Below are positions 6,747 to 53,780 of a DNA stretch of 64,000 nucleotides, piece by piece. The stretch spans positions 338,307 through 402,306 of the forward strand of contig JAQTLX010000001.1 in assembly GCA_028714695.1 (NCBI GenBank), in the 5' to 3' direction. A program made the position numbers and the translations under genes. The DNA is from Ignavibacteria bacterium (GTDB lineage: Bacteria > Bacteroidota > Ignavibacteria > Tepidaquicellales > Tepidaquicellaceae). The notes under the pieces are model-generated. The model was given only the letters and a program-made list of their open reading frames with translations, did no database searches and had not been told where the DNA came from. Within the stretch, counting starts at the first letter, position 1; every line of letters starts with the position of its first letter.

Positions 6747-6754
6747 GTTGTCAA

Positions 6755-7720
6755 ATGATTAAAAACAAAAGGATATTGTTAACCGGCGGCGGCGGATTTA
6801 TCGGCAGCAGACTTGCGGAATTGTTCAGTAATGATAATGAACTTCTGATATATGATATTTTCGCGCGGGATTCTCTGAAGTATAAGAAAATTAATTATAA
6901 AAATGTCAAAGTTGTTGACGGCGATGTGACGGATTTTTCGTCTTTGAAGAAAGAAACTGAGGATTTTAAACCGCAGATAGCGATTCATCTTGCGGCAATT
7001 GCCGGCGTTGATACAGTGATAAATAATCCTGTTAAAACCATGGATGTTAATATTCTCGGCACATTCAATTTTATAAAATCGCTTAAGAAATTCAGCGGAA
7101 AACTTGAACGGGTTATCAATTTTTCCACAAGCGAGGTTATGGGCGCTTATTCGTATAAATCTTCTGAAAAATCTAACACGAACGTTGCTCCTGTCGGCGA
7201 AGGCAGATGGACCTACTCAATAAGCAAGGTCTCGGGTGAACATCTCATTTACAGTTATTATAAAATGTTCGGTTACCCCGCATTATCCGTGAGACCATTC
7301 AATATCTACGGTCCCGGGCAAATTGGCGAAGGCGCAATACAGATTTTTATAAAGAACGCTGTCCTCAATAAAGATATTCAGATTCACGGGGAGGGCGACC
7401 AGATAAGATCATGGTGCTATATTGACGATATGATTGACGGAGTAATGCTATGCCTCGAAAATAAAAAAGCAATCGGAGAAATTTTTAATATAGGAAATCC
7501 GAAAGGCACTGTTACTATAACATCACTTGCGGAAAAGATACTTGCACTTTGCAAAACGAAATCGAAAATAAAATATATCCCGAAGAATTACGTTGACGTT
7601 GAATTAAGGATTCCAAGCATAGATAAGGCTCAGGAAATACTTGGTTTTAAACCTAAGGTCGACCTTAATGAAGGGATAATTAAAACATTTAAGTGGTATA
7701 AAAAATATTTTAATAATTGA
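6755..7720 (+). CDS. NAD-dependent nucleotide-sugar epimerase/dehydratase (extended SDR)
   Basis: The 321-residue protein opens with the Rossmann motif LLTGGGGFIGSRLAELF, has an AIHLAAIAGVDTV strand, a Ser in NFSTSEVMG, and the catalytic YSISKVSGEH (Y-x3-K). RPFNIYGPGQ and DDMIDGV follow in the order usual for extended short-chain dehydrogenases acting on NDP-sugars. The ATG at 6755 is 8 bp after the previous stop. The next gene encodes a formyltransferase, so this enzyme may provide a keto- or epimerised sugar in a formamido-sugar route; this is inference. Specific activity (4-epimerase or 4,6-dehydratase) cannot be fixed. Confidence 0.85.
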   Translation: MIKNKRILLTGGGGFIGSRLAELFSNDNELLIYDIFARDSLKYKKINYKNVKVVDGDVTDFSSLKKETEDFKPQIAIHLAAIAGVDTVINNPVKTMDVNILGTFNFIKSLKKFSGKLERVINFSTSEVMGAYSYKSSEKSNTNVAPVGEGRWTYSISKVSGEHLIYSYYKMFGYPALSVRPFNIYGPGQIGEGAIQIFIKNAVLNKDIQIHGEGDQIRSWCYIDDMIDGVMLCLENKKAIGEIFNIGNPKGTVTITSLAEKILALCKTKSKIKYIPKNYVDVELRIPSIDKAQEILGFKPKVDLNEGIIKTFKWYKKYFNN

Positions 7721-13518: not shown

Positions 13519-16500
13519 ATGAAAAAATATCTACGCTCATTATTACTTTCCCTGTTGATTCTTTCCGTTTCATCTTTTGCTTTTGCAAATGTGATTACCT
13601 CAAATGGAAACGGAACCGGTATTAGTGTAAACGTTATTGAATCAAGAAGCGGATACACAAAATTGGAATATAATTTTTTCGGATACGATTCCAAAGAAAT
13701 TAAAATAAACGGGAACACATATCTTTCTGTGTATGCTCCTGAAATGTCGTGGCTGATGGAGAAAAACAACCCCGAACTGCTTACTTACAAAAGAAGCATT
13801 CTCATCCCCGATAATTCGGCTATGAATTACAAAATACTTTCTCAGGAAACTGATGAGTTCTCAACTCTTCCGATTATGCCTTCTAAAGGCAACTTCACAA
13901 GGGATATAGACCCGAATTCAATACCATACGCATTTAGCAGCATTTATACTTCTGATAAATATTTTCCCGAAAATTCCGTTTCTTTTGCATCGCCGTATAT
14001 CGTGAGAGACTTCAGAGGAATGACGATTCAATTCAATCCTATGCAGTACAACCCGGTAAAAGGTAAAATGAAAATAACCAGAAGAATGGTTATTGAAGTG
14101 TTTTCGGATAATTCACTTAAAGCCGAAAATCCTTTGATAAGACAAACTCCGCTTTCAAGAGTTTCGGGTGAATTTGCAGGCATATATAGAAACCTGTTCA
14201 TGAATTACGGTGTAGGCGAAACGCGTTTCGATTCTATTCCCGAACCCGGCAAAATGTTAATCATTTGTCCTACTGCTTATTTGACTGCAATTCAGCCTTT
14301 GGTTCAGTGGAAACAATCCCGCGGTCTGAATGTTACCGTTGCCGAATATCCGGCAGCAACAGGTTCAGGTAACACTGCAATAAAAACTTACATCCAAAAT
14401 ATGTATAATTCTTCGGGTTCGGTTACATACATTATTTTGGTCGGCGATGTAGCGGATATACCGACTCTGAACGGCGTTTACGAATCTGCCCCATCGGATC
14501 CGTGTTACGTGAAATTAGCCGGGACAGACGCATATCCCGACGCGTTTATATCAAGAATATCCTGCCAGAATGCGTCAAGTGTTTACTATGTTGCTCAGAA
14601 ATTTATAAGATTTGAAAGAGATATAGAATATGGTGCTTCCTGGTATACAAAAGGAGCCGGAATCGGCGGACCTGATGTCGGCGGTACACCGCCTTATGCG
14701 GATTCAATCAGAATGAACTGGGTTAGGGATACATTGATGGCTCATGGTTTTACACAAGTTGATAAAGTTAATGGTCCTGTGGCTACACCGCAGACATTAA
14801 TAAATGTTCTTAATGAAGGAAGATATGTATTGAATTATATCGGCCATGGTTCGGGTACATCCTGGAGCAATACAGGATTTTCAACTACAAATTCATATCA
14901 ACTGGCAAACGGCTGGAGAGAGCCGTTCCTCGTTGACGTTGCATGCCTGAACGGCAATTTTACATTGAATGAATGTCTTGCAGAATCACTTCTGCGAGCA
15001 GGCGATACTGCAAATCCTAAAGGATGCGTTTCAATTTATGCGTCGTCCACTAACGCAAGTTGGGTGCCCCCATGCGATATGCAGGCAGCTGTAATGAGGA
15101 ATTTGGCAAATAGAACAAAGAAGACCGCAGGCGCAATTTCGTTTTTCGGTCTTATGACTGCAATGGATATTAACGGTGGAAGCACAGGAGAAGGTCTGAA
15201 GATGATGGAGCAATATAATATATTCGGCGATTGTTCGCTTCTTCTTTCCAGAGGAGTTCCTCTCGGACCGTCGATTTCTCATAATCAACTGCCGAATACC
15301 GAAAATCTATCCGGACCTTATATCGTAAATGCAACAATAAACACGGTAAATTCAGGTCTTGTAGCAGGCAGAACAAAATTGTTCTGGACACGCGGTACTG
15401 CATTCACTGACAGCGTTACTATGACAAATTCAAGCGGGAATAACTGGACTGCCACCATTCCGGGAAACGGTAGTTCAGCAAACTACAGGTACTTTATCAC
15501 AACAATTGATTCTGTCGGTAGAACTGCATTTGCACCCGGCGGAGCGCCTTCGAATTATTATTCATTCGCGGCAACTCCTGATAATATTAATCCCGTAATT
15601 ACGCATACTCCTTTACCGAATACACCGAAATCAGGTTGGCCGGCAACCGTAACAGCAAATGCAACTGATAATATAGGCATAGATTCTGTATGGGTAAAAT
15701 GGTATATCAATAATACATCAACCGGTATTAAGGAGTTCAAACTGGTACATACAACCGGGACGACATACACAGCAGCATTCAACTCTACTAATGCTCAGGT
15801 GAATTTTAACGATTCAATATTTTACAGAATATTCGCAAGAGATATATCAAATGCACATAATACCGATTCTACATCACTTAATAAATTAGTAATTATTAAT
15901 CTCGTTAATGCCTGTATCGGAACGGGTACATCATCTTCAAACTATCCGTTTGCAACATACTGGCACGATGGCAGAACACAGATGCTCTTTACTGCTTCGG
16001 AATTAAATTCAGTGGGAGCAGGTTCAAACAGTACAATCACTAAGATAGGATTCAATGTCATTAGTGCCTCGTCTCAGGTTATGAACGGATTCAATGTAAG
16101 ATTCCAGCATACCTCGGCAACATCGTTGGCCGGTTACGTTACATCCGGCTGGACGACAGGTTTCTCTGGTACATATACCGTGCCTGGAACAGGCTGGCAG
16201 TATATTGATATGACGTCGCCATATTTCTTATATAACGGTACAAGCAATTTGCTCGTTGAAGTGTGTTTTGACAATACATCATGGACGGATTATTCAACTG
16301 TTAATTCAACTTCGGCACCTAATATGACCTGGGCATATGCAAATGATAACCTAACAGGCTGTTCTATAACGGGAGGCGCAACGCAATCGTACAGACCTAA
16401 TGTTTGTTTCACATTAACTACTGTATTAGGAGCAGTAAATAATGCAAATCTTATTCCTAACAAATACGAATTGGCTCAAAACTATCCGAATCCGTTTAAT

Positions 16501-16911: not shown

Positions 16912-18699
16912 ATGAATATTCACAAAAAAACGCTCATTCAACTGCTCATAAATGCTATGAAAAAGTTCGATGTGATGCAGGATATTGTTTTTACGAAGAA
17001 AGATGACCAGTATGCAGGCATGAACAGATTTGAAATAGTCAATTATTCCCTCTGCATAAAAGAATACCTCGAAACTCTAGGATTAAGAAAAAACAGCGAC
17101 CTGGCAATCATTTCCGAAAACAGGGTTGAGTGGATAATAACGGATCTGGCGTGCATGCTTTCGCAAAACAGAACCGTCCCTATATACGCTTCGCTTACTC
17201 CCGAATCAATTAAATATATACTTAATGACTGCAAGGCGGAAATTATTTTCGTCTCAACAGGTCTTCAATTGGATAAAATTCTTTCCATAAGAAATGAATG
17301 CCCTGATTTGAAATATATAATCTCTTTTAACAGTTTCGAAAGAGCAAACATAAAAGAACATATTATCTCTTTCAGGGATATTTTCTGCGATAAAACAAAG
17401 TTATCGAAGAATGAACTCCTTGAGAAAATTGAGATTATTTCCGACGGCGTTAATGATGACGATGTACTGACTAATATATATACTTCCGGAACCACGGGTG
17501 TTCCAAAAGGTGTTATGCTGACACATAAAAATATTTATTCGAATCTTGTTTCATTTCCGGAAGTACTGCATATCGACGAAAAGGAAATATTCCTTTCCTA
17601 TCTTCCGTATTCACATATTTATGAGAGAACAGCGGGGTATTATCTTCCGTTTTTCTGGGGTTCAAAGATATATTATGCACAAAGCATCGATACTATAGCA
17701 TTACAGATGACCGAAGTTAAGCCCACTATTATTATTACTGTACCCAGGCTTCTCGATAAGATATATAACAAATTGATGAAAACTTCCGCGGAAATGCCTG
17801 AAGGATATAAAAAGAAGATATTCAACTGGGGACTTAATGTTGCACGGACTGAATGGAATAACAAAGATTCGGTGAAGTGGAAACTTGCAAATAAACTTGT
17901 CTTTCAGAAAATCCGCGAAAAAACAGGCGGAAAATTAAATCTGTTCGCTTCCGGAGGAGGCGCTTTAAACAGAGCCGTTGGAGAATTTTTCGACGGAATA
18001 GGAATTATTACTCTTGAGGGATACGGTCTCACGGAAACATCCCCAGTTGTAGCCGTTAACAGAGTCGACAGAAATAAATACGGTACGGTGGGTATTCCTA
18101 TGAGAGGCGTCAGTGTTAAAATTGCCGATGACGGAGAAATACTCGTCAAAGGCGATACAGTGATGAAGGGTTATTATAACCAGCCGGCAGAAACCGCAGA
18201 AGCAATTAAAGACGGATGGTTCCATACTGGTGATATCGGAGAATTCGATTCCGACGGATGCCTGAAAATCACGGATAGGAAAAAATCTTTGTTTAAGTCA
18301 TCGGGAGGAAAATATATTGCCCCGACTCATATAGAAGAACTCGTTTCAACGCTTCCTTATGTCGATCAGGTGATTGTGATAGGCAATGAAAGGATGTACG
18401 TGACTGCACTGATAGTTCCGGATACGAACGAACTGAAATCGCTGGCAAAAACATTGAAAGTGAATCTTGAATTTGAATCCGACCTCTTCACGAGTCCAAT
18501 AATCCTGAAGCAGATTGAAAAAGATATCAACGAAGTACAGAAGAATCTCGCAAGTTTTGAAAAAATCAGAAAATTCAATTTGCTGCAGACTCCGTTTACT
18601 ATTGAAGGCGGTGAGATTACGCCTACTCAGAAAATCAAAAGAAAATATGTCGAGGAGAAGTATAAGCACATTATAGATAATATGTACCATAAAGTGTAA
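16912..18699 (+). CDS. Long-chain acyl-CoA synthetase (AMP-binding)
   Basis: The 595-residue protein carries the adenylate-forming signature: IYTSGTTGVPKGVMLTHKN (P-loop, about residues 190-210), GYGLTETSPVV (A5-type motif), and GWFHTGDIGEFDSDG followed by ITDRKKSLFKSSGGKYI (A7-A8 motifs). The C-terminal subdomain has the late lysine region (TPTQKIKRKYVEEKYK). Length and motif spacing are those of bacterial long-chain fatty acyl-CoA ligases that activate fatty acids with ATP and CoA. It stands alone between a terminator and a repeat region. Confidence 0.9.
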   Translation: MNIHKKTLIQLLINAMKKFDVMQDIVFTKKDDQYAGMNRFEIVNYSLCIKEYLETLGLRKNSDLAIISENRVEWIITDLACMLSQNRTVPIYASLTPESIKYILNDCKAEIIFVSTGLQLDKILSIRNECPDLKYIISFNSFERANIKEHIISFRDIFCDKTKLSKNELLEKIEIISDGVNDDDVLTNIYTSGTTGVPKGVMLTHKNIYSNLVSFPEVLHIDEKEIFLSYLPYSHIYERTAGYYLPFFWGSKIYYAQSIDTIALQMTEVKPTIIITVPRLLDKIYNKLMKTSAEMPEGYKKKIFNWGLNVARTEWNNKDSVKWKLANKLVFQKIREKTGGKLNLFASGGGALNRAVGEFFDGIGIITLEGYGLTETSPVVAVNRVDRNKYGTVGIPMRGVSVKIADDGEILVKGDTVMKGYYNQPAETAEAIKDGWFHTGDIGEFDSDGCLKITDRKKSLFKSSGGKYIAPTHIEELVSTLPYVDQVIVIGNERMYVTALIVPDTNELKSLAKTLKVNLEFESDLFTSPIILKQIEKDINEVQKNLASFEKIRKFNLLQTPFTIEGGEITPTQKIKRKYVEEKYKHIIDNMYHKV

Positions 18700-30388: not shown

Positions 30389-30457
30389 GGGGGAGTAGAA
30401 GTTCTTTTATTCTGAAATTGACGGGTTATCATTGGAAAATTATTTATCCGATTTGTC

Positions 30458-30477
30458 ATTCCCGCGAAAGCGGGAAT
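30458..30477. repeat. REP-like hairpin ATTCCCGCGAAAGCGGGAAT
   Basis: A perfect 8-bp stem (ATTCCCGC with GCGGGAAT) closes a GAAA loop shortly after ppa. This short palindrome is of a type widely dispersed in bacterial genomes. It may act as a transcript end between ppa and the convergent gene at 30523. A related half (CGCCGGGATGAC) occurs near 37654. Confidence 0.6.
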
Positions 30478-30522
30478 CCATTAGCGAAACACTGATTCCC
30501 GATGAGCAACTCGTAACGATTT

Positions 30523-30957
30523 TCATGTTTCAGGGAACCACCACCCTTCTTGTTTTTTGTTATATACTTTTCCTTTGTCGTCAATTATTACAACCTCACA
30601 TACATAGGGGTTTTCAATATACTTTTTGAAAGTAGAATCGAGGCGTGACTCATTAAGGTTAAATTCTATAGTAAGTTTCGCGGATTTCACATAATCCATG
30701 CTTGATCCGCTTCTTTCAACCATATCAGGATACAAAGAAATCCAGTTGTTGAGAGATTTAATTACCGGCTTTGTCAATAATTTTGCGGGAGACATTTCTT
30801 TGTTTAAAATATCAACTTCAAGTTTGCTGCATTTTGTTTTTCTCGCCTGCTTAAGTAGATGACCTAAAAAATAATTGTCTTCTATATGATTCATGCAACT
30901 GACAAGAGAATTCCCGAAATTATGTGATACACTCTTAAGAGGTTTATGTCGTTTCAT
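30523..30957 (-). CDS. Hypothetical protein, 144 residues
   Basis: I do not recognise this protein. It starts MKRHKPLKSVSHNFGNSL, has a helix-rich, lysine-rich N-terminal half and a C-terminal half with beta-like strands (LTIEFNLNES, VCEVVIIDDKGKVY), ending in WWFPET. No signal peptide or membrane helix is seen. Its start lies 18 bp from the first palindromic repeat (30976). It is the leftmost gene of the - strand accessory block. Confidence 0.5.
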   Translation of the reverse strand: MKRHKPLKSVSHNFGNSLVSCMNHIEDNYFLGHLLKQARKTKCSKLEVDILNKEMSPAKLLTKPVIKSLNNWISLYPDMVERSGSSMDYVKSAKLTIEFNLNESRLDSTFKKYIENPYVCEVVIIDDKGKVYNKKQEGWWFPET

Positions 30958-30975
30958 ATTTCTACGTTATGATTT

Positions 30976-31038
30976 GTGCCCGTCAGGACTTACGTCCTGA
31001 CGGCATATCACTGTCAGGAGGAAACTCCTGACAGTCAC
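30976..31038. repeat. Palindromic dispersed repeat, copy 1 (63 bp)
   Basis: It begins GTGCCCGTCAGGA and ends TCCTGACAGTCAC, so its ends are imperfect inverted repeats. Internally it has hairpin A (GTCAGGACTTACGTCCTGAC) followed by hairpin B (CTGTCAGGAGGAAACTCCTG). The same plan is seen at 31701, 35802, 37748 and 38481. It sits between two genes, with no ORF of its own. Confidence 0.75.
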
Positions 31039-31127
31039 GAAAAGGTTATGTTTTGTAACCGATTGTTGCACGATCGGCATTTTGTCAAATATTTTATCTT
31101 ACTTTATTACAAATATACTGAAATTAG

Positions 31128-31646
31128 TCAATTCCAATTCAATATTTTGGTGAAAAGAGATTTGTTGATTTTAAAATCTTCTGGAAATAATTTAATTTCA
31201 ATTCCATAATTTATTAAGTTCTGAAATGAACAATCTGTATTATTCGATTTCGAAAAATGGTATAGATTCCATAAATATTCTTTTGAAGAATATGAGACAC
31301 AAATTCTATGTATTTCATACTGAAATATTTTAAATTCTGTCGCTGAAATGTTTCCTGTTGTCTTTAAATAGCATACATAATCTACATAAGAAAACAATTT
31401 ATCAATAGAACATTCGAAATCGCTTTTATGAAAAGAACTATTATACCAATCTTGTTTATAGTCTATAATATACATTGCTTTTTGTAAGTCCTTGTCAAAT
31501 CTAAGTTTTTCAAGAATTTGGCTAATAAATTCAGCACGTCTGATTTTCAAACTTTTTTTCCACTGACAATAAATGAAAATACCTCCAATTGCTACAAACA
31601 TTAATGAAATTAAAGTAAACCAATTCTCAATTGTAAGATTACACAT
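31128..31646 (-). CDS. Hypothetical membrane-anchored protein
   Basis: The 172-residue protein has one membrane helix near the N-terminus (about residues 9-27, FTLISLMFVAIGGIFIYC) followed by a charged cytoplasmic-type domain rich in aromatic residues with ISQILEKLRFDKDLQKAMY and an IHRICVSYSS segment. This layout resembles small DUF4760-type proteins with an N-terminal anchor, but I cannot confirm the family. It lies between repeat copies 1 and 2. AT-richness and lack of relatives suggest transferred DNA; function unknown. Confidence 0.5.
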   Translation of the reverse strand: MCNLTIENWFTLISLMFVAIGGIFIYCQWKKSLKIRRAEFISQILEKLRFDKDLQKAMYIIDYKQDWYNSSFHKSDFECSIDKLFSYVDYVCYLKTTGNISATEFKIFQYEIHRICVSYSSKEYLWNLYHFSKSNNTDCSFQNLINYGIEIKLFPEDFKINKSLFTKILNWN

Positions 31647-31700
31647 GATGTTATTCTTTTATATTTAATAAAATTTTTAATTCTTAAACTATGCTCGTTT

Positions 31701-31763
31701 GTGCCCGTCAGGACTTACGTCCTGACGGCATATTTCTGTCAGGGGGAAACAACTGACAGACAC
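31701..31763. repeat. Palindromic dispersed repeat, copy 2 (63 bp)
   Basis: It has the same length and order as copy 1: hairpin A (CGTCAGGACTTACGTCCTGACG) and then a degenerate hairpin B (CTGTCAGGGGGAAACAACTGACAG), ending GACAC. It lies between genes 31128-31646 and 31782-32369. Confidence 0.75.
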
Positions 31764-31781
31764 GCAAATAAAGCTGTTCAA

Positions 31782-32369
31782 TTATCCTGTAATTTTTATT
31801 TCTTCAACTTGTGTATTCATTATTCGTCGCATTAGAATAAAAGAGAATTTCACGCCTTCTTTTTCGGTAATTATATCCTTTAAGAAAACATTAGAATCAT
31901 TTAAATATTCCTTCGGAAAACTTATTGTTAAATACGTCATTTCTTTTTTAGCGGGTTCCCAATATCGATATTTTATTACCTTATGTCCTACATATTTTCT
32001 TAGAAATTTGTTGATTGTCTGACCATCTTTGTACCAGTTAATGAGTGATTTATTTACATAAACATCATCCCAACTTTTAAATAATGGAAAATGTACAACA
32101 ACATTCCTGATAAATTTAAATAATTCACTCCCAATCTCTGATTCCATAGGTGGTCTAACTGTTTTTAATTTTTCGATTACCCATTTCAAAGGTTCGTAAT
32201 TTAAAAGTTCTGCATAAATAGAAAATGCTTGCTGTATTTTAGAAAATCGTTCCCATTCGTCTTTTCCCCAAAAATCATCATCCATAACTTCTTCATATAA
32301 ATCGTAGAATCGATTATACGCTAAGGTTAAGAATTGTATTTCGGATTTATTTGGTCCAATGTCATTCAT
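31782..32369 (-). CDS. HEPN-like hypothetical protein with RX4H motif
   Basis: The 195-residue protein is mostly helical in its first 110 residues (FLTLAYNRFYDLYEEVM, IQQAFSIYAELLNY) and carries ELFKFIRNVVVHFPLF at about residues 80-95. R-N-x3-H is the signature of HEPN domains, where it forms the RNase active site or its remnant. The C-terminal part has strands (YLTISFPKEYL). HEPN proteins act in toxin-antitoxin, abortive infection and CRISPR systems. The match here rests on one short motif, so the assignment is moderate. It lies 18 bp from repeat copy 2. Confidence 0.5.
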   Translation of the reverse strand: MNDIGPNKSEIQFLTLAYNRFYDLYEEVMDDDFWGKDEWERFSKIQQAFSIYAELLNYEPLKWVIEKLKTVRPPMESEIGSELFKFIRNVVVHFPLFKSWDDVYVNKSLINWYKDGQTINKFLRKYVGHKVIKYRYWEPAKKEMTYLTISFPKEYLNDSNVFLKDIITEKEGVKFSFILMRRIMNTQVEEIKITG

Positions 32370-32669
32370 AAAACTGGTACTAATTCGTATTTAAGTCTGA
32401 TAAAATGAGACCTCTACTGTTAAAATTAGGTGATTAGGTCTGGTTGTAATCAAATTATGTTTTAAAAATATATCTATTTCTAGAAGACAAATAAGAAAAA
32501 GTAATTCAACTTATTCCTTTTTTCGAATATATTAATTAAAAATAAAATTATATACACAATAAAAAACAAATACCTTTCCTTAAGAGAGGACATTAACATT
32601 TATTGATATTCGAAAGCCGGTTTCTTCCCTTTTTGTAAAAAGGAATTTGAGAAGAATAAAAAGCTAAAA
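32370..32669. other. AT-rich intergenic region
   Basis: About 300 bp with no gene-like frame. The sequence is AT-rich, with one short CCTTAAGAGAGG hairpin near 32579. It probably includes the promoter of the HEPN-like gene on the - strand. Confidence 0.5.
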
Positions 32670-33479
32670 TTATTTTGTGTACTTCTTTCTCATTTTGTTA
32701 ATAAAATTTATTTTTAGGCTCCCAATATTTTTACCAGTCAAATAAAAGTTTCCACTACCAATTAACCAAAAAACTTTGTCAACAGCATATGACGTGACAT
32801 TACAAGAATTTGCAATTCTGTCAATTGCTTTAAATGTTGAATAGTCTTGTTTAGTAACAGATTTAATATTTGGATTTATTATTTGTAATGCTTTAAAAAT
32901 GTCTTTTAAATGAACGTCAGGTTTTCCATACTCAACAAACCCTAATTCTTTTAGAAAGTTGCATGCTAAAGGAAACCCGATACCTGAAATTTCATTACTT
33001 ATCATTAATGGAAGTGCGGGTTTCGCTCTAATATCGTTTGTAAAGATATTAGACCACTCATAGAATTTCTCTGCTGTTTCAAAGTATTTTAAAAAATGTG
33101 CCGAATCAATAACTGATTGACAAAATTCTGGCCATAAACTTTTCGGTGTTGTTCTCATCTGTCCTGTAGGATATAATATATTTTGGATTTCTGACAATAG
33201 TACTCCTGTGTCCGTTACACCAAATTTATCAGCAACTCTGTGAGGATCAAAGTCAAAAAGAACATTTTTTAAATTGTCAATACCGCCAATTGCGTTTCCA
33301 ATAACATTTGTACTCATTTGTTTTTCTTGTGCAGATTTGCATAGTCCTTTGTAGATTATTTTCAAATCATTTGGTTTCTCATACTCTGAAACTAAATGTT
33401 TATCAAGATCTGATTTTTTAATTGTCTCAAACGACATTAGAAAATCAAGTGCTGATTCGTAAATATCTTTTTCTGTCAT
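32670..33479 (-). CDS. Possible HhH-GPD-like protein (DNA glycosylase-related)
   Basis: The 269-residue protein has, in its second half, ISGIGFPLACNFLKELG, which fits a helix-hairpin-helix (x-GIG-x3-A-x2-FLKELG), followed by GKPDVHLKDIF, where an Asp next to His resembles the catalytic region of HhH-GPD glycosylases. The typical Lys of bifunctional enzymes is not obvious. The N-terminal part is helical (KIIYKGLCKSAQEKQM). It may act on DNA, but a glycosylase role is only an inference from these motifs. No signal peptide is present. Confidence 0.45.
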   Translation of the reverse strand: MTEKDIYESALDFLMSFETIKKSDLDKHLVSEYEKPNDLKIIYKGLCKSAQEKQMSTNVIGNAIGGIDNLKNVLFDFDPHRVADKFGVTDTGVLLSEIQNILYPTGQMRTTPKSLWPEFCQSVIDSAHFLKYFETAEKFYEWSNIFTNDIRAKPALPLMISNEISGIGFPLACNFLKELGFVEYGKPDVHLKDIFKALQIINPNIKSVTKQDYSTFKAIDRIANSCNVTSYAVDKVFWLIGSGNFYLTGKNIGSLKINFINKMRKKYTK

Positions 33480-33550
33480 TCGCTTATTTTTTATTTAATA
33501 CATTAAATGCTATCTAATAGGTAAAACAAAATCAAACTAAATATAACACA

Positions 33551-33576
33551 AACATCCTCTCTTACGAGAGGATGTT
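33551..33576 (-). terminator. Hairpin, probable terminator of the GIY-YIG-like gene
   Basis: AACATCCTCTC and GAGAGGATGTT form an 11-bp stem around TTAC. It lies 17 bp after the stop of the gene at 33594 read on the - strand. It resembles the hairpins at 37904 and 46568. Confidence 0.6.
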
Positions 33577-33593
33577 TTATAAAAATTTGAGAA

Positions 33594-33902
33594 TTATTGT
33601 TTACCGCAAATAGGGTCATACAATGATCTTAATTCTTGCTCAATGAGTCTTCTTCCTGCTTGTTGCAAGTTTGGAGTGTAATAAACTGAAACCGTCAAAG
33701 TACCCTTACAATTCTTTGTCCAACAGTCTTTTCTATCATGATTTGCTACTCTAGATTTTACCTGTGAACTTTCTCCGACATCAATTAAATAATATTTATC
33801 ATATATTTTACAATGTATTGCATAAATTCCGGATTTATCATCGAGAGAATCCGTTGTTGTATAAGGTCCTTCAAACGAATAATTACCTACAGAAATTGAC
33901 AT
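33594..33902 (-). CDS. GIY-YIG-like small protein
   Basis: The 102-residue protein has SGIYAIHCKIYDKYYLIDVG, which matches the first two strands of a GIY-YIG domain (GIY, then a degenerate YIG as DVG), followed by ESSQVKSRVANHDRK (helix with Arg, His) and IEQELRSLYDPICG, which offers the conserved Glu and the final loop. The order and spacing support a GIY-YIG fold, although the nuclease may be inactive because YIG is altered. Such domains cut or bind DNA in repair, homing and defense proteins. It lies beside a DUF4041/GIY-YIG gene, possibly related in job. Confidence 0.6.
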   Translation of the reverse strand: MSISVGNYSFEGPYTTTDSLDDKSGIYAIHCKIYDKYYLIDVGESSQVKSRVANHDRKDCWTKNCKGTLTVSVYYTPNLQQAGRRLIEQELRSLYDPICGKQ

Positions 33903-34011
33903 AATCTTACTCCTTTATATTTTAAAAATATTATTTGTTCCCCTTAAGACCAACTTCTTGATGGTATTTGCTGTCATTAGATTACTCTTAACAGTCATGG
34001 ATATTCGCAAC

Positions 34012-34248
34012 TCATTTATAATCGTAATCTACAGGAATCCAATCAATAAGTGTCCCGTCGCATTCAGGTGCATAAGGGCAATAAATAAGTTCTTCGTCAT
34101 CTTCGTCAATAAATACTTTATAGTCTCCGATTGTAAATATTCTGTCACAATGTATACATCTTCTTTGATCTCTTAGATTTGGTATATTTTCAAAAGGATA
34201 GTGTTCTTTCAGATATTTTTCTTTATCTTCAATTTTAACTTCTTTCAT
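34012..34248 (-). CDS. Small zinc-ribbon-like hypothetical protein
   Basis: I start it at the ATG at 34248 (MKEVKIEDKEKYLKEHYPF, 78 residues); an upstream ATG at 34275 adds nine residues. It contains RRCIHCDRIF and, about 20 residues later, CPYAPEC, a C-x2-C and C-x5-C pair that could bind zinc. The rest is acidic (DEDDEEL). No function is known. It lies between two GIY-YIG-type genes on the same strand. Confidence 0.5.
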   Translation of the reverse strand: MKEVKIEDKEKYLKEHYPFENIPNLRDQRRCIHCDRIFTIGDYKVFIDEDDEELIYCPYAPECDGTLIDWIPVDYDYK

Positions 34249-34328
34249 AATTTTATAATTTAAATTTGTTGTCACTATATTATTTTACAAATAATCTCCC
34301 TTGCGTGAGAATACTTGACTATGATCAA

Positions 34329-35690
34329 CTATACAAGCGAAGATGGAAACTCACTAGCAATCTTTTCTTCAATCGTTTCAGGTTTTATCGGATTATTCAA
34401 TTTATCCATAATAGCGAGCGTCTCTCTATATTCCATCGCTTCAGGTAATTTTGTAAATTCAGCATTTATGCCTATGTTTGATACTTCTTTCTCTATCTCA
34501 TCTATACTGACTTTAAAAAACTCTTTTCGGTTGTTTAACATATTGACTTTTTTATTAGCGAATGCTAAATGCAATTTATTTTCTAAAGCAGGTGCGTTTT
34601 CTGAAAATATCATGGCATGTACGTCAAAGTGAAACGGTACCGATGCATCTCCCAACTCTCTCACTCTATCCAGCGGTTCTAATCTTCTGGTCAAACCTAT
34701 TTTGTATACATTCTCGCCAAATGAACCAATATTTGAAATTATATATATGTTTCCTCTCTTGGTTTGTTGCGCCATAGATATTGCTCTTTCCTTTTTGTCT
34801 CTAGCTTCAGATAGTTCTTTCTCCAATGATTCTATTTGTAACAGCAATTTATCGTGTTTCTCTCCTGTTACCTGCTCAACTTCTTTTTTTGCTTTATCGA
34901 GAGCCTTTTGATAAATGACTTCCTCTTTTTCAGCCTCACGTTGTGCTTGCTCGTATTCTCTTTTTGCTTTTTCTTCTTCTCTTTGTTCCTCTTGCATACT
35001 TCTCAACTCTTCTTTTTCCTGTTGTCTTTTTAATTGGTATTCATGTTCAAGTAAAAGCTCCTTTTGCTTTAATACAAGATATTGAGTATTCAAGTAGACA
35101 TTAAACCCTTCGCCAAGTTTATTGATTGCATCAAATAACCTTTGCATTCTATCTTTCATTTGATTGACATTGTTCCATTTTACTTTAGATACAAGAGAAT
35201 CGCATTCACCATTGAAAGCCCTGAGCATAAGTTTTTTATACCTATTAACAACTGCTCTTCCTTTTGATTCACTATTACCAACAGTCCATTTAGTATTGCA
35301 TATTGCCGCGGTATCCTCTTTTATCATTGATTTCTGCTCATCAATAATTCTATTTTGTTTGACCCGGTAATCATCAGATTTTGCAAAATCAAATACAGTC
35401 TCATATATACCAAAATCAATTGCATCAATTTTAGATTCAAAAAGATTTATTTCTTTTCTAAGTTTTGTATAAATTTCTAAAGCATCTTGGTATTTAGAAT
35501 TTAAATTATTGATATTTAATTGAATTTCATCAATTTCTTTTTTCTTGTTCTTAGTTATTTCATCTAATAAATTTTTTTTATTAGATACTTCTTGTTCTAT
35601 GTCAGTTATTGATTTGTATCGTTCGAGTTGACTTTTCAGTGCAGAAATCTCTTCTAACTCTTTCTTTTTATTAAAATCAAATATTCCCAT
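34329..35690 (-). CDS. DUF4041 protein with C-terminal GIY-YIG (T5orf172-type) domain
   Basis: I start it at the ATG at 35690 (MGIFDFNKKKELEEISALKS), which gives 453 residues; an ATG at 35762 is possible but adds a poorly typical N-terminus. A long coiled coil follows, then the DUF4041-type domain (YETVFDFAKSDDYR, NQMKDRMQRLFDAINKLGEGF), a highly charged coiled coil of about 120 residues (KREYEQAQREAEKEE), and a C-terminal GIY-YIG-type domain: NIYIISNIGSFGENVYKIGL, then ARAND-like DRVRELGDASVPFHFD and ENKLHLAFANKKVN. This architecture is common in phages, mobile elements and defense islands. Confidence 0.82.
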   Translation of the reverse strand: MGIFDFNKKKELEEISALKSQLERYKSITDIEQEVSNKKNLLDEITKNKKKEIDEIQLNINNLNSKYQDALEIYTKLRKEINLFESKIDAIDFGIYETVFDFAKSDDYRVKQNRIIDEQKSMIKEDTAAICNTKWTVGNSESKGRAVVNRYKKLMLRAFNGECDSLVSKVKWNNVNQMKDRMQRLFDAINKLGEGFNVYLNTQYLVLKQKELLLEHEYQLKRQQEKEELRSMQEEQREEEKAKREYEQAQREAEKEEVIYQKALDKAKKEVEQVTGEKHDKLLLQIESLEKELSEARDKKERAISMAQQTKRGNIYIISNIGSFGENVYKIGLTRRLEPLDRVRELGDASVPFHFDVHAMIFSENAPALENKLHLAFANKKVNMLNNRKEFFKVSIDEIEKEVSNIGINAEFTKLPEAMEYRETLAIMDKLNNPIKPETIEEKIASEFPSSLV

Positions 35691-35801
35691 GATATTATTA
35701 TTAGAGTTGATAGGGGATTTTGTATTAATTTTAATATACAAATAGTAATAAAAAAATTCCATTTAATAAACAAACATCTACCTTTAGTAGGAATGTTCAC
35801 T

Positions 35802-35903
35802 GTGACTGTCAGGACTTACGTCCTAACAGAAAATACCGCCAGGAGGAAACACTCCCTCGACACAGCGAGACTTCGTCATGGCGGGCTGGCTCCTGACTGG
35901 CAC
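35802..35903. repeat. Palindromic dispersed repeat, copy 3 (102 bp)
   Basis: It begins GTGACTGTCAGGACTTACG and ends CTCCTGACTGGCAC. Hairpin A and B are both degenerate; the centre adds GACACAGCGAGACTTCGTCA. It lies between the DUF4041 gene and the hydrolase gene. Confidence 0.7.
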
Positions 35904-35980
35904 AAAAGAAATATCTATTTTGTATAAATCTTCCTATGTATTATAAACGCTGCTATATTTTACAGCCAATTCTGCGTGTC

Positions 35981-37324
35981 TTATTTTGCGAGTTTTAAAA
36001 TCCATTCTATACAGCCGGCCGGGTCAACAATAGACCAGGAATGCGGATGTCTTGTTCCATCGACTCTATATCCTTTTCCGAGCGCCTGAACAAATTCAGC
36101 ATTTTTGTTTCCTTTAAGCATTAAAAAATTAATCATGGCGGATTGATCGGCTGCATTCATGTGATAAAAATCTCTACTTTTATTTTTTAATTGCCAAACA
36201 ACATCGGGGTCAGAATATATTCTAACGGGAACATCTATTAAAAATTTAGCATTTCCTCCGTCATCCCGATTTAGCGAAAATACCGAACTTGCGGAGTATT
36301 TGTCAGGAAATTCCTCGGGCGGTCCTCCATACAAATCGTGATAATATTTAATTATAAAATTATCCTCATTGAGAGCCATTTGTTTGCTGTCTGTTATTTT
36401 TGTGGTATCTTTCGCGTATAAATCTATTTCGTATTTTGCATGATGATATAATGTAACGTTATCCACAGGCGGGTCGGCGCCAATTACTGCCAATGGATAT
36501 ATATAAGTATTGTATTTTTTATTCCTTGACATTTCGGTGTATAGCAGCGCATTCTCACCGCCCAACGAAAGTCCGCTTAAAATAAATTTATCTTTAGGAG
36601 CGCTAAATTTTGTAACCAGTTTTTCAAAAACGATTTCGAAAAAGTTCATTGCCCGCATATCGCTTTCGAGACTTTTATTGTTGTTGCAACTTATTACCGC
36701 TGTCAGGATGCCATTATCATATGCCTTTTGCATCAATTCCTTATTGCAACTTATTACATTTTCCGAAGTCTCTCCGGCGGAAGGTAATAAAATCAATACA
36801 GCATTTATTTCCTTGTCGGGTACAAGGGCATAATAAAAAAACATATCACTCCCATTGCCGTTAATATAAATTTCCGTGCTGTCTTTTAATGTAAGGTATT
36901 CCTTCTTTAGTACGGCTAAATAGTTATCGTCAAGATTCAGAAAATCACCATTTACAAAGTTGCCGATTGTTTTTCCTCCATTGTCAAAATAAATCGCCCC
37001 CTTTCCATTTAAAAGCCCGTCTGTAAAATCCCCCTCCATAACACCCAGACCAAAAATACTGTATTTACCCTTTCCGTTAAATTTGCCGCCTTTCATTTGC
37101 CCGGTATATTCCGCCGCTAATTTTCCATCTTCATAACAAAGTAAAGTTCCATTGCCTTCGGCATAGTTATTCTTGCAATCTCCGGTCCAACTAATGCCGG
37201 CGCCGAGAGAATATTCATAACTCCATATCATACAACCGGTTTTGCTGTCTTTAATATATTGTCCCGTTTGAGGAAATGCGTTAATCGAAATTAATAGAAA
37301 AAGAACTAAAAGAATTTGTTTCAT
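35981..37324 (-). CDS. MORN-repeat protein fused to an alpha/beta-hydrolase-like domain
   Basis: The 447-residue protein has a signal peptide (ILLVLFLLISINAFPQ), then several MORN-type repeats at about residues 40-130 (GDCKNNYAEGNGTL, GQMKGGKFNGKGKYS, GDFTDGLLNGKGAIYF). From about 165 an alpha/beta-hydrolase core follows: AVLILLPSAGETSENV, then KFILSGLSLGGENAL with the nucleophile Ser in GLSLGG, and a late HPHSW with a possible catalytic His. It is likely periplasmic. Its substrate is unknown. Repeats flank it on both sides. Confidence 0.7.
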   Translation of the reverse strand: MKQILLVLFLLISINAFPQTGQYIKDSKTGCMIWSYEYSLGAGISWTGDCKNNYAEGNGTLLCYEDGKLAAEYTGQMKGGKFNGKGKYSIFGLGVMEGDFTDGLLNGKGAIYFDNGGKTIGNFVNGDFLNLDDNYLAVLKKEYLTLKDSTEIYINGNGSDMFFYYALVPDKEINAVLILLPSAGETSENVISCNKELMQKAYDNGILTAVISCNNNKSLESDMRAMNFFEIVFEKLVTKFSAPKDKFILSGLSLGGENALLYTEMSRNKKYNTYIYPLAVIGADPPVDNVTLYHHAKYEIDLYAKDTTKITDSKQMALNEDNFIIKYYHDLYGGPPEEFPDKYSASSVFSLNRDDGGNAKFLIDVPVRIYSDPDVVWQLKNKSRDFYHMNAADQSAMINFLMLKGNKNAEFVQALGKGYRVDGTRHPHSWSIVDPAGCIEWILKLAK

Positions 37325-37747
37325 TTCTAATTTGTTATTGCGTTAAAGTTTTCTAAATTTATGCGTCAAGTTTTGCCGCTTTCCGGCATGTGTGTTCTCC
37401 AACATTGTATTTTATTACCTTCCAAAACACTGCCGGTAAGGAATTATCGCAATCCTGTCTCAAAATTATAAAGTAATATGCTAAAATAATAAAGGTAATA
37501 ATAGAATTTAGTTTTGTAATATTCTTTGTGCCTTTCTGATTCCTGTGCAAATGCCCTATTGAAAAGATTTGCCGAAGCGAATCTTCGGTTTTTGGAGGAG
37601 AGAATTAATCTATGTTTCGTATATGGATTCCGTCCAGCCACGGCAGTTCTTCGACTTTCGCCGGGATGACAAAAAGGAATAACCTGATTATAATATGTTA
37701 TCGGAATTATTTCCTTTGTTCTTTGCCCTTAATGGTAAATATTTAAT
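37325..37747. other. Intergenic region without convincing gene
   Basis: Two overlapping short frames on the - strand have unusual composition and no family resemblance. A small hairpin (GAAGATTCGCTTCGG) and a REP-like fragment CGCCGGGATGACAAAAAGG near 37654 are present. The region appears to be repeat debris next to repeat copy 4. Confidence 0.5.
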
Positions 37748-37871
37748 GTGACTGTCAGAACCTGTCCCGATTTAATCGGGGACTTACGTCCTATGAGAAA
37801 ATACCGTCAGCATGAAATCCTCCAGCGACACAGCGAGCCCTTGGCATGGCGGTCGGATTCCTGCCGTGCAC
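37748..37871. repeat. Palindromic dispersed repeat, copy 4, with a nested palindrome (124 bp)
   Basis: It begins GTGACTGTCAG and ends near TGCCGTGCAC. The left hairpin is split by a second palindrome, TGTCCCGATTTAATCGGGGA, suggesting insertion of a different short repeat. The centre (GACACAGCGAGCCCTTGGCATGGCGG) is like copy 3. Confidence 0.7.
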
Positions 37872-37903
37872 ATAAATAATTTTTTAATAAAACTTGGTTG
37901 TAA

Positions 37904-37932
37904 ACAAATCCCCTCCATAAGAGGGGATTTGT
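37904..37932 (-). terminator. Hairpin, probable terminator of the lipoprotein gene
   Basis: A 12-bp perfect stem (ACAAATCCCCTC with GAGGGGATTTGT) closes a 5-nt loop, 26 bp after the stop of the gene at 37958 on the - strand. A near-copy, with the same right flank GTGTTT and AAGTATTA, is found at 46568. Confidence 0.65.
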
Positions 37933-37957
37933 GTTTTAAAGTATTAGTTTTCACTTT

Positions 37958-38410
37958 TTATTTCTTTAGTCCGGTTAATTTATTTTTTATTTCCTCGGTT
38001 ATTCTTTTGCTGTCGTTCTCCGTAAAAGTTGCGTCCTGACAATAGATGTTACGGCCGAGGTACTGTTCGTATCCGGAGGTTTTAATTGTTGTAAACTGGT
38101 CCCATTCATTTTTTTCCTTTGACAGAAATTCTCCGCAAACAAGGTAAGATTTCCTGTCCCCTGACGTCGTGTATCCGGCCTTTACATTACGTACATCGAT
38201 AATCTTCCCCGCCTGATGCTCGTTGAAATCCATAGCAGCCGAATTAATTAAAAACTGAATTACTGAATCAGGTATCGATTCCTTGCTCTCCGGTTTTGTG
38301 GTATTGTTGGAAGTGTTAGTTCTTGAATCTTTTTCCTTTACCTGCGTATTGCAAGCCATTAAAAGTGTCAAAAAAATGGCTGCCAGATATAATAAAATAA
38401 ATCTTTTCAT
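37958..38410 (-). CDS. Small lipoprotein
   Basis: The 150-residue protein has a lipoprotein signal peptide with lipobox LLMAC (Cys at about residue 20). A Ser/Thr/Asn-rich linker follows (TNTSNNTTKPESKE), then a compact domain with FLINSAAMDFNEHQ, AGYTTSGDRKSYLVCGEF and a C-terminal helix. This could be an outer- or inner-membrane lipoprotein; no family was recognised. Repeat copies 4 and 5 lie on either side. Confidence 0.6.
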   Translation of the reverse strand: MKRFILLYLAAIFLTLLMACNTQVKEKDSRTNTSNNTTKPESKESIPDSVIQFLINSAAMDFNEHQAGKIIDVRNVKAGYTTSGDRKSYLVCGEFLSKEKNEWDQFTTIKTSGYEQYLGRNIYCQDATFTENDSKRITEEIKNKLTGLKK

Positions 38411-38480
38411 GAAATTAAATTATTTTATAAAATATGTTATTGATTTAAGTTCGTTCCCTTAGGGTATTGTAACTTTTAAT

Positions 38481-38567
38481 GTGACTGTCAGGACTTACGT
38501 CCTGACAGAAAATACCGTCAGGAGGAAACCCTCCAAACGAGAAGGCGGGCAGGCTCCTGACGGGCAC
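38481..38567. repeat. Palindromic dispersed repeat, copy 5 (87 bp), abutting a gene fragment
   Basis: It begins GTGACTGTCAGGACTTACG, has CCGTCAGGAGGAAACCCTCC in the middle and ends CTCCTGACGGGCAC. It shares its left flank (TTTAATGTGACTGTCAG) with copy 4. Its right end joins directly to the interrupted reading frame of a DUF1801-type gene. Confidence 0.75.
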
Positions 38568-38665
38568 AAAATGCGGTGCAGTTCCTGCATGTCGCCGCGT
38601 TTTGGTTCGGGCTGTGCCGCTATGTATTCTTTTATTTGTGTATTAATTTGTTCTTTTGTATTCAT
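38568..38665 (-). pseudogene. DUF1801-type gene, N-terminal fragment cut by repeat copy 5
   Basis: From an ATG at 38665 the - strand reads MNTKEQINTQIKEYIAAQPE and then PKRGDMQELHRIL, which is the conserved start of DUF1801 family proteins (AxQPEPKRxxMQxLHxxI). At 38567 the frame runs straight into the palindromic repeat and the rest of the domain is missing on both sides of it. The intact gene would be about 110-140 residues. It lies just downstream of the RibD-C-like gene on the same strand, so it probably belonged to that gene set. Confidence 0.75.
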
Positions 38666-38679
38666 AAAACACTTTTAAG

Positions 38680-39240
38680 TTATGATATTTTTTTGCTTGC
38701 AGGTTTATAGTAATGAATTACAGCGCCGCCGCTAAAAGTTTTTGTGTTTATGAGTTTAAGAACAGTTCGTTCATTAATGTTTTTAAATAAAGGCAAACCG
38801 CTTCCCGCAATAACAGGGTGAATGCAAATTTGATATTCGTCAATTAAATTAAGATTTGTCAAAGATACAATCAAACCCGGGCTGCCGACAAATACGTCCT
38901 TACCCGATTGCTGCTTGAGTTCCAAAACTTCGCTTTCAATATCACGTTCTGCCAGTTTAGCGCTTTTCCAATCGACACTTTTCAAAGTATGAGAAAAAAC
39001 TAATTTCGGGGTTTTGTCTATTGCAACTGCAAAATCGTCCATTGATTTGTTGCCTGTGGGATTCTCGAGCACAGTTCTCCAATATTCCATAAGTTGATAC
39101 GTTATTCTTCCATAAAGAACGATACACGCATTTCTTAGCAAGTCTGCATAATGCTGATGTATTTCATCATCGGGTATTCCTGCTGTATGGTCGCAATACC
39201 CGTCAAGCGTCATATTGATTGCTGCTATTAGTTTTCTCAT
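38680..39240 (-). CDS. Dihydrofolate reductase/RibD-C family protein (paralog 1)
   Basis: I start at the ATG at 39240, giving MRKLIAAINMTLDGYCDHTA and 186 residues; an upstream ATG at 39303 adds a poorly conserved leader. The family features are the first strand with TLDGY, then LYGRITYQLMEYW and a late segment with VGSPGLIVSL and IHPVIAGSGLPLF. These small reductase-like proteins bind NADPH-type nucleotides. They are related to the riboflavin-biosynthesis reductase domain, but most act on unknown substrates. Two further paralogs are nearby. Confidence 0.82.
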   Translation of the reverse strand: MRKLIAAINMTLDGYCDHTAGIPDDEIHQHYADLLRNACIVLYGRITYQLMEYWRTVLENPTGNKSMDDFAVAIDKTPKLVFSHTLKSVDWKSAKLAERDIESEVLELKQQSGKDVFVGSPGLIVSLTNLNLIDEYQICIHPVIAGSGLPLFKNINERTVLKLINTKTFSGGAVIHYYKPASKKIS

Positions 39241-46413: not shown

Positions 46414-46567
46414 CTATTTGTAATATAAAACTATTTATTTCTTGATAAGGTTCATGACCTTGCTGAACGCTTGCCGCGGCGATGATATAATATTTCCTTT
46501 CCAAGTGTCCTTTGAACTTAGAGTTGAAAAGAAAAAAAAACATGTGTAATTCACGTCATTATAAAAT

Positions 46568-46591
46568 AAATCCCCTACTGAGAGGGGATTT
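46568..46591 (-). terminator. Hairpin, probable terminator of dnaK
   Basis: AAATCCCCT and AGGGGATTT form a 9-bp stem with a 6-nt loop, 30 bp after the dnaK stop on the - strand. A near-copy, including the flank GTGTTT..AAGTATTA, lies at 37904, so this is part of a dispersed hairpin family. Confidence 0.6.
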
Positions 46592-46620
46592 GTGTTTCGA
46601 AGTATTATATATATTATAGG

Positions 46621-48555
46621 TTATTTTTTATCGTCTACAACTTCAAAGTCGGCATTCTCAACGTTGCCATCGTCTTTCTTAGGTTCGCCTGTTCCTGCAT
46701 TTGGATCGGCATGCGGCTGTTCAGGTCCCTGTGATTTTGCCTGTGAATACATCTTCGAAGATGCTTCGTTCCATGCAGTATTGTACTGGTCCATAGCGGA
46801 TTTGATTTCCGCGTTGTTGCTGCTCTTTACTGCTTCCTTCAGCCTGTCGAGCGCCGCCTGTATCTTTGCTCTGTCTTCCTGTCCAAGTTTTCCTTCGAAT
46901 TCTTTCAATTGCTTTTCGCCCTGGAATATCATCGCGTCAGCCTGATTCTTTGTATCTATTTCTTCGCGTTTCTTCTTGTCATCCGCTTCATGTTCTTTTG
47001 CATCCTTCTTCATCTTTTCAATTTCAGTATCGGTTAAACCGCTTGAATGCGTAATCCTGATATCCTGAGTCTTGCCTGTTCCTAAGTCTTTTGCCGTTAC
47101 GTGAAGAATACCGTTCGCGTCAATGTCGAATGTTACTTCAACCTGCGGAACACCTCTCGGTGCAGGCGGAATCCCTTCAAGATGGAATCTGCCGAGCGTC
47201 CTGTTATCAACTGCCATAGGTCTTTCGCCCTGAAGCACGTGAATTTCAACAGAAGGTTGATTGTCGCTTGCCGTCGAGAATATCTGCGACTTTTTCGACG
47301 GAATTGTTGTGTTGGCTTCAATCAGTTTTGTCATAACGCCGCCGAGTGTTTCAATACCGAGCGAAAGCGGAGTTACGTCAAGAAGAAGTACGTCCGAAAC
47401 ATCGCCTGCAAGCACACCGCCCTGAATTGCCGCGCCTATCGCGACCACTTCATCCGGGTTAACGCCTTTATGCGGTTCTTTGTTGAAAATCCTTTTCACC
47501 GTATCCTGTACCATCGGGATTCTTGTAGAACCGCCGACCAGTATAACTTCATCTATTTCGCTTAAACTGTAGCCTGAATCGTTCAATGCCTTTGTGCATG
47601 GACCCACTGTTCTTTCTACAAGGTCGTTCACAAGCGACTCGAACTTTGCTCTTGTCACAGTTTCTACAAGAAACTTCGGTCCGTCCGCTGTTGCCGTAAT
47701 ATACGGAAGATTGATTTCGGTCTGCGGAGTCGTCGATAATTGTTTTTTTGCAGTTTCCGCCGCTTCTTTAAGTCTCTGCAATGCCATCGGGTCTTTTCTT
47801 AAATCAATACCTTCTTTTTTCTGAAATTCATCCGCTAAATAATCCACTAATCTCTGGTCAAAATCATCGCCTCCTAAGTGTCCGTCGCCGTTCGTCGATT
47901 TCACTTCAAACACGCCGTCGCCCAGTTCAAGAATCGAAATATCGAATGTACCGCCTCCAAGATCGAATACAGCGACTTTATGATTCTTTTTCTTTTTATC
48001 CAATCCGTATGCAAGCGCCGCTGCCGTAGGTTCGTTTATAATTCTCTTTACATCGAGTCCCGCGATTTTACCCGCGTCTTTTGTTGCCTGTCTCTGCGCG
48101 TCGTTAAAATATGCCGGTACAGTAATAACAGCCTCCGTAACAGGCTGACCGAGATAATCCTCGGCTGTTTTTTTCATCTTCTGCAAAACCATCGCCGAAA
48201 TCTCGGGCGGTGAATATACTCGTTTCTGATTCGAACTCTTGTCATCTATTTCAACTCTTGCCACATCGTTATCGCCTCTTATAACTTTATACGGGACTTC
48301 GCCGATTTCCATAGAAACTTCGTCGAACTTGCGTCCCATAAATCTCTTTATGGAGAACACGGTATTTGTCGGATTAGTAACTGCCTGCCTTTTCGCGGCA
48401 TCACCGACAAGTCTTTCTCCTGTTTTCGTGAATGCAACAACCGATGGGGTTGTTCTCATTCCTTCGGAATTCGGGATAACCACGGGGTCGTTGCCTTCCA
48501 TTACGGAAACGCAAGAGTTTGTAGTTCCCAGATCAATTCCAATAATTTTTCCCAT
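46621..48555 (-). CDS. dnaK: Molecular chaperone DnaK
   Basis: The 644-residue protein starts [20 protein letters not shown], has the ATPase signatures [37 protein letters not shown] and [14 protein letters not shown], the substrate-binding domain ([20 protein letters not shown]), and ends in FEVVDDKK. It folds and protects proteins with GrpE and DnaJ. It lies about 90 bp downstream of an Hsp20 gene on the same strand; grpE and dnaJ are not adjacent. A heat-shock link between the two genes is inferred. Confidence 0.97.
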
Positions 48556-49076: not shown

Positions 49077-49427
49077 TTTTAAATCTCCTTTGTTTTTGTT
49101 GTTTTTGTTTTCTATTGTACACAACATATATCAATACTCGTGCCAAATTTAGAAATGTGCAAAAACAATTAAAAACTTCATAGTGTCTCTGACATTTTAG
49201 TCCTAAATCTGAATTATAATGCAAAAATATGAATTTTGTATCAAAAATTGAATTAAATGTCAAATAAGTAAATTCATGCAGCGAAACACAGGGACGATAT
49301 GTTTGAATCACCTATAATGTGAAACACCGAATATCGGCTATAGTTATCAATTTCATAAAAAAATATTGTTTTGCAGACAGGAATAAATAGCATTGTTCGA
49401 CGCAGTGAATTTTCGACTCGAAACTAT

Positions 49428-49543
49428 GAGCCTTCGGCTCACCACGGCGAGCCTTCGGCTCATCGCAGCGAGCCTTCGGCTCACCGCAGCGAGCCTTCGG
49501 TTCATCACAGCGAGCCTTCGGCTCACCGCAGCGAGCCTTCGGT
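49428..49543. repeat. Six 21-bp tandem repeats (GAGCCTTCGGCTC hairpins)
   Basis: Units of 21 bp begin at 49428, 49449, 49470, 49491, 49512 and 49533. Each contains GAGCCTTCGGCTC, a GAGCC/GGCTC stem with a TTC loop. Units differ by a few bases in the spacer (CACCGCAGC or CATCACAGC). Although one frame reads as repeated EPSAHRS, no start region supports a protein. Confidence 0.85.
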
Positions 49544-49615
49544 TTGTATGTCAGGAATATTATCCCAAAGAAATGTGACTTTCAGCGTGACATCGCAAAA
49601 GAATATTTTTAAAAT

Positions 49616-53445: not shown

Positions 53446-53590
53446 TTATTTCATTTCCACGAGGCACCTCAATTTATACTATTAGAAGTCTTGCAAAATG
53501 ATTTCTTAACCTGATATCACAAAAGAACATTTCCTTATGATTTTTAGATGCCGCTCGCTATGCGGGCTTAAAGATTTTTGATATGCTTTT

Positions 53591-53726
53591 CTACCAAGAT
53601 TCCGCCCCTATGGGGCTTAATTTATCTTATATTCTCTTTCTACCAAGATTCCGCCCCTATGGGGCTTAATTTATCTTATATTCTCTTTCTACCAAGATTC
53701 CGCCCCTACGGGGCTTAATATATTTT
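53591..53726. repeat. Three 49-bp tandem repeats with CGCCCCTATGGGGC hairpins
   Basis: Units begin at 53591, 53640 and 53689 with CTACCAAGATTCCGCCCC. Each has a CCCC/GGGG hairpin core; the third copy is slightly changed (CCCCTACGGGGC). A related fragment GATGCCGCTCGC..GCGGGCTTAAAG precedes them at 53549 and another copy lies near 50440. There are no unique spacers, so this is not a CRISPR array. The other part of the 53446-53780 gap holds no gene. Confidence 0.8.
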
Positions 53727-53780
53727 CAGACTTCGATTGTCTCAGTTAATCTTCGACCCGTGCGTCAAAGAAAAAATAAA

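Follow-up and report, generated by a model that had tools for sequence, protein, structure and literature searches.

How does a gene come to stop exactly where a palindromic repeat begins? In the window, i.e., the whole stretch of 64,000 nucleotides analyzed here from an Ignavibacteria-type genome, the 5′ part of a DUF1801-like gene (38567..38665, minus strand) ends at the outer end of a repeat (copy 5, 38481..38567, plus strand), which an earlier note took as direct evidence that the repeat had moved or recombined into the gene and that sequence was lost with it. The loss is borne out by intact genes in same-genus genomes, but the movement is not directly evidenced, as three routes lead to the same end product: insertion of the repeat and later loss, deletion up to a downstream repeat, and recombination of direct copies. 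The junction is essentially a clear but familiar type of genome remodeling. What it offers is a breakpoint, concrete and open to checking, for a REP-like family from a little-studied phylum; it also pinpoints a ppa–dnaK hotspot carrying phage-defense and restriction genes.

The gene fragment and its junction with the repeat

Read on the minus strand from 38665 to 38567, the fragment (32–33 codons, delimited by translation, relatives and nucleotide alignment) encodes MNTKEQINTQIKEYIAAQPEPKRGDMQELHRIL, and translation continues through the repeat as CPSGACPPSRLEGFLLTVFSVRT; the resulting hybrid frame is 56 aa long, with 23 extra codons and the stop inside the repeat. Homologs with this N-terminus do exist, being full-length proteins of 138–149 aa (tblastn and alignment), and identity over the fragment is 79% to G001, 55% to G004, and 66–76% to other relatives. 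Searched against the Pfam profile PF08818 (DUF1801), the intact relatives yield E-values from 4e-7 to 7e-3, with the Pfam cut-off passed by one out of seven (L067), and the 33-aa fragment alone yields no match; judged from these sequences, the DUF1801 label seems fair, but borderline. Close to its start, the fragment also carries four inserted codons that every aligned relative lacks, which fits a gene in decay.

The remaining ~109 C-terminal codons, three quarters of the length of this small gene, are nowhere in the window, in agreement with the earlier note, and there is no 3′ remnant at the far end of the 8.1-kb block described below or past the repeat's left end. Besides the fragment, the DUF1801-like content of the genome is one distant paralog. 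What is left of the gene is a pseudogene fragment.

The nucleotide alignment of the window with the relatives stops at CACCGCAT(T), and the repeat sequence TTTTGTGCCCGTCAGG starts there. The break is 0–4 nt from the outer end conserved in the repeat family, and the first 32–33 codons indeed run into the end of copy 5. No target duplication was seen at the junction by eye. Since the gene is intact in the same neighborhood of same-genus genomes and the window copy ends exactly at the repeat end, there is good support for a loss of sequence at this edge of the repeat. It is extremely improbable that the junction is an assembly artefact: the longest identical run between copy 5 and the other copies compared is 24 bases, below the usual assembly words, which makes a chimeric assembly via the repeat unlikely, and neither the N-terminal part nor the missing part has another home in the genome, although misjoins can arise at repeats.

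The repeat family and its copies

Copy 5 consists of two hairpins in series with tagged outer ends, GTGACTGTCAGG ... CCTGACGGGCAC, as seen from folds and the family alignment; its fold has z-scores of −7.2 (DNA) and −7.8 (RNA), and no shuffle folded equally well. Repeat units share the core GTCAGGA..TCCTGAC and the outer end CCTGAC[AG]G[GT]CAC, with A-rich DNA after it, and many of them are paired, with the tagged ends facing outward. Pattern searches and BLAST locate the repeat at about 24 sites across the 3.85-Mb genome (zero for reversed-pattern controls), and under a strict hairpin pattern the family also turns up in further genomes, from the same genus, family, and order, with at most 17 places per genome. 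It shows the general features of REP-like elements, i.e., short, dispersed, apparently intergenic palindromes in paired units with stable hairpins. In the titles and abstracts from a literature search on Ignavibacteria and Chlorobi, nothing relevant to the family came up, and it was not met in the literature searched.

All five window copies have one orientation (plus strand); copies 1–4 lie inside the 8.1-kb block, whose edge is where copy 5 is found. Copy 1 (30973..31043; the two-hairpin subtype TTTGTGCCCGTCAGG...) and copy 2 (31698..31768) are 90% identical; copy 3 (35799..35905) has the same subtype and spacer as copy 5, with 36 out of 37 bases of the left part matching (counted by eye); copy 4 (37745..37872) is degenerate, and its first hairpin contains a nested palindrome. 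A mosaic make-up of copy 5 was considered as proof of recombination and dropped, as the two-hairpin copy at C10:35294 is also short-looped and loop type varies among two-hairpin copies in general. Elsewhere in the window, at 49401–49547 and 53588–53734, units of 21 nt (GAGCCTTCGGCTCAC-like) and of 49 nt, with palindromic cores, are arrayed in tandem.

The 23 other copies examined are apparently intergenic, and in many cases a stop codon lies just a few bases before them; frames overlapping repeat copies are short or start at the edge, and apparently are spurious. Copy 5 is complete, with both of its ends present, and to its left the upstream region of the next gene follows directly. This arrangement would be expected if the repeat had resided downstream of the stop codon and a deletion of ~330 bp or more had ended at its outer edge, through slippage of replication at the hairpin or cleavage at the repeat foot; the strong hairpins of copy 5 point the same way, strong hairpins being known fork-stalling sites. 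However, no copy of the family lies between DUF1801 and ppa in G001, and such a deletion alone would leave the 8.1-kb block unexplained. We regard it as possible, but on the unlikely side.

The genome encodes four Y1_Tnp genes, and none of the four is flanked by the GTCAGGA..TCCTGAC family. Other palindromes surround each of them, so that the flanks assign no transposase to this REP-like repeat, and several REP families apparently coexist within one genome; the palindromes around the four RAYT-like genes (L121, L122, L123, and L124) are CCCCACCTAAAGGTGGGG, CATGGTTAAAACCATGG, CCCACGACTTTAGTCGTGGG, and GCCCCGTAGGGGC.

Copy 5 could have transposed into codon 32/33 as a REP-like element, with a Y1 transposase (RAYT) mobilizing it in trans; decay or deletion would later have removed the distal part of the gene. 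The presence of Y1_Tnp genes and the position of the tagged outer end exactly at the break are consistent with that, and both GTAG and CGTC repeats, the latter in some species, occur within genes (PMC3733652). But the Y1_Tnp genes keep other palindromes, and the missing 3′ remnant calls for a second loss ending at the other end of the repeat. An insertion would be recognized by an empty site in a relative together with gene halves on either side of the element; relatives do have the gene intact, but the window retains just its 5′ part, and the relatives searched included no close strain in the intact, singly inserted, or an intermediate state. With the apparently intergenic location of the other copies and no target duplication seen, the claim of direct evidence for the repeat moving in falls, and transposition is unlikely.

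The ppa–dnaK interval in the window and in relatives

The left border of the region is ppa, encoding inorganic pyrophosphatase (PF00719; 29708..30388, plus strand), and the right one is the gene at 46621..48555 (minus strand), which from its sequence and established knowledge we take to be dnaK. The two conserved border genes are convergent, and the 16.2 kb between them in the window comprise an 8.1-kb accessory block (30389..38480) followed by the DUF1801 fragment and RibD/VOC genes. In G001, a genome of the same genus, contig C106 has the order ppa – intact DUF1801 – RibD_C – VOC – RibD_C – RibD_C – PEP mutase-like – dnaK, so that the intact DUF1801 directly adjoins ppa, whereas ppa of the window is 8.1 kb away from the fragment. 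In G004, also of the same genus, the intact DUF1801 gene sought by the earlier note's check was found directly behind the ortholog of the window RibD_C gene (38680..39240, minus strand), which is directly upstream of the fragment. There, ppa and dnaK are 0.6 kb apart on a different contig, and hence the RibD/DUF1801 cluster sits elsewhere in that genome. The same pairing is seen in a second MAG (L042), where the DUF1801 gene (6593–7030) behind the same RibD_C gene is also disrupted, with a frameshift close to codon 31 as well as an in-frame stop, reflecting independent decay or sequence error. The RibD_C gene is ~85% identical in the nearest genome keeping the RibD_C/DUF1801 pair, and with identity only this high many events may lie between.

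In G011 and G019, hardly anything separates ppa from dnaK; in G003, the gap is occupied by a 4.2-kb R-M island that includes a DNA methylase and a putative restriction enzyme. A conserved gene pair with exchangeable gene content constitutes a minimal mobile element, and, given its conserved borders and differing content in relatives, the ppa–dnaK gap qualifies as such and is a gene-exchange hotspot. In G001, a repeat copy of the same family borders the hotspot, beside the dnaK terminator. The window dnaK terminator with ~12 bases past its hairpin (46559–46607) has a second copy at 37898–37946, beside repeat copy 4, and in G003 direct copies of the genome's own dnaK terminator lie on both sides of the R-M island (L174, about 14439–14477 and 18542–18576); this looks like terminator duplication at island ends.

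The accessory block, with its PD-Lambda-1-like, GIY-YIG-like, and orphan genes, was not found as a whole in the relatives searched and is missing at this place there, single genes having scattered homologs; it represents a larger event, outside the scope of the earlier note. The hotspot has been remodeled, and where the new block ends, DUF1801 has been lost from about codon 33 on. By coincidence, an illegitimate deletion or an import of the ordinary kind could have joined the gene to repeat-bearing DNA, as frequent remodeling of the hotspot would make junctions plentiful; a break within 0–4 nt of the family's conserved end, however, renders coincidence very improbable.

The PD-Lambda-1-like gene (34329–35762, minus strand) was identified by a profile match (E 1.5e-174), and this family has been described as SNIPE, combining DUF4041 with a GIY-YIG nuclease (PMC13190303); the N-terminus of the SNIPE-like phage-defense gene of the window is, by eye, without an obvious membrane segment. 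The GIY-YIG-like gene (33594–33902, minus strand) and the gene at 32670–33479, with weak Ogg-HhH and SwaI-like matches, may also be defense genes. No ortholog of the neighboring lipoprotein-like gene that would fix the left side was found in the relatives searched. A homolog of the block gene 30523–30957 is present at another locus, on contig C126 of G001 (L200, 1487–1972 and 2030–2460), where a methylase-like gene precedes it and a CGTC-type repeat comes after it, along with degenerate GTCAGGA-family copies. The window, too, has dRS3-like/CGTC-type repeats, at about 30453–30482 (ATTCCC..GGGAAT; ATTCCCGC..GCGGGAAT), at the ppa end of the block, and at 37625–37680 (a longer relative), and a similar repeat follows ppa in G001.

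Possible repeat–repeat recombination and known repeat systems

The reading that we rank first, at a probability of roughly 0.45, is that remodeling of the hotspot severed the DUF1801-like gene at the repeat's outer end, via recombination between this repeat and another copy. The starting state would be an intact DUF1801-like gene within a RibD/VOC cluster between convergent ppa and dnaK, with a repeat copy located in or at the gene. This copy would then have recombined with a second, direct copy, resident in or brought by the incoming 8.1-kb block, thereby removing the 3′ 109 codons and joining the repeat to the block. The current role of the repeat probably is only that of a 3′ hairpin behind the RibD_C gene.

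Recombination between copies ranks first because it yields the loss and the block junction in one step and has a precedent in Neisseria. It is favored by the gene being intact behind the same RibD_C gene in G004 (frameshifted in L042) and beside ppa in G001, and by the five same-orientation copies within or at the edge of the block. That breakpoints fall at these repeats is suggested by the DUF1801 junction, the hotspot-bordering repeat by the G001 dnaK terminator, and a duplicated unit elsewhere in the window's genome, on contig C7 (G000; L193, 3990–4921 and 7523–8450). The latter consists of 932 nt with one gene and one repeat, its two copies being 98.5% identical and 3.5 kb apart with other genes between; the right edge is ~15 nt beyond the repeat, and the left edges are away from repeats. 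On the other hand, the exact identity between copies, at most 24 bases, is short for RecA-dependent exchange, and the completeness of copy 5 and the failure to find an intermediate strain also weaken the recombination reading.

A broader reading, which we hold to be quite unlikely, is that the GTCAGGA..TCCTGAC repeats serve in Ignavibacteria as recombination or mobilization sites moving single gene-plus-repeat units without an integron integrase; direct copies between block genes, the duplicated C7 unit, and the DUF1801 break would then be traces of such movement. If it were true, the question of what mobilizes palindromic repeats lacking their own transposase would become testable here. Integron cassettes or an attC array were rejected, as no integrase (TIGR02249) scored above the cut-off in 29 genomes, including G000, and the position of the left edges of the C7 unit also disfavors cassettes.

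The family resembles the REP/BIME/REPIN repeats of the GTAG type, associated with RAYT, in its short palindromic units, often in tagged pairs, its intergenic location, tens of copies, and Y1_Tnp genes in the genome. In contrast to GTAG REPs, it lacks GTAG at the hairpin foot, most copies read having the ends GTG[AC]C / G[GT]CAC, and it differs from REP/RAYT systems in its low copy number and in that no Y1_Tnp gene adjoins it. CGTC-tagged REPs, including the neisserial dRS3, are likewise palindromes without their own flanking transposase and are known in Bacteroidetes and Chlorobi (PMC3733652), but their sequence differs from the GTCAGGA..TCCTGAC core and GGGCAC ends seen here.

As for the hotspot, minimal mobile elements in Neisseria were reportedly described by Saunders and Snyder in 2002. 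The ppa–dnaK interval shares with them the conserved border genes, the exchangeable content, and the loss of genes between or at palindromic repeats, whereas the repeat sequence is unrelated. In Neisseria, hpuAB has been deleted via recombination between repeats (PMC3352162), the same source cites van der Ende (1999) for a porA deletion in which REP clusters recombined, and dRS3-mediated rearrangement has been suggested (PMC3898611).
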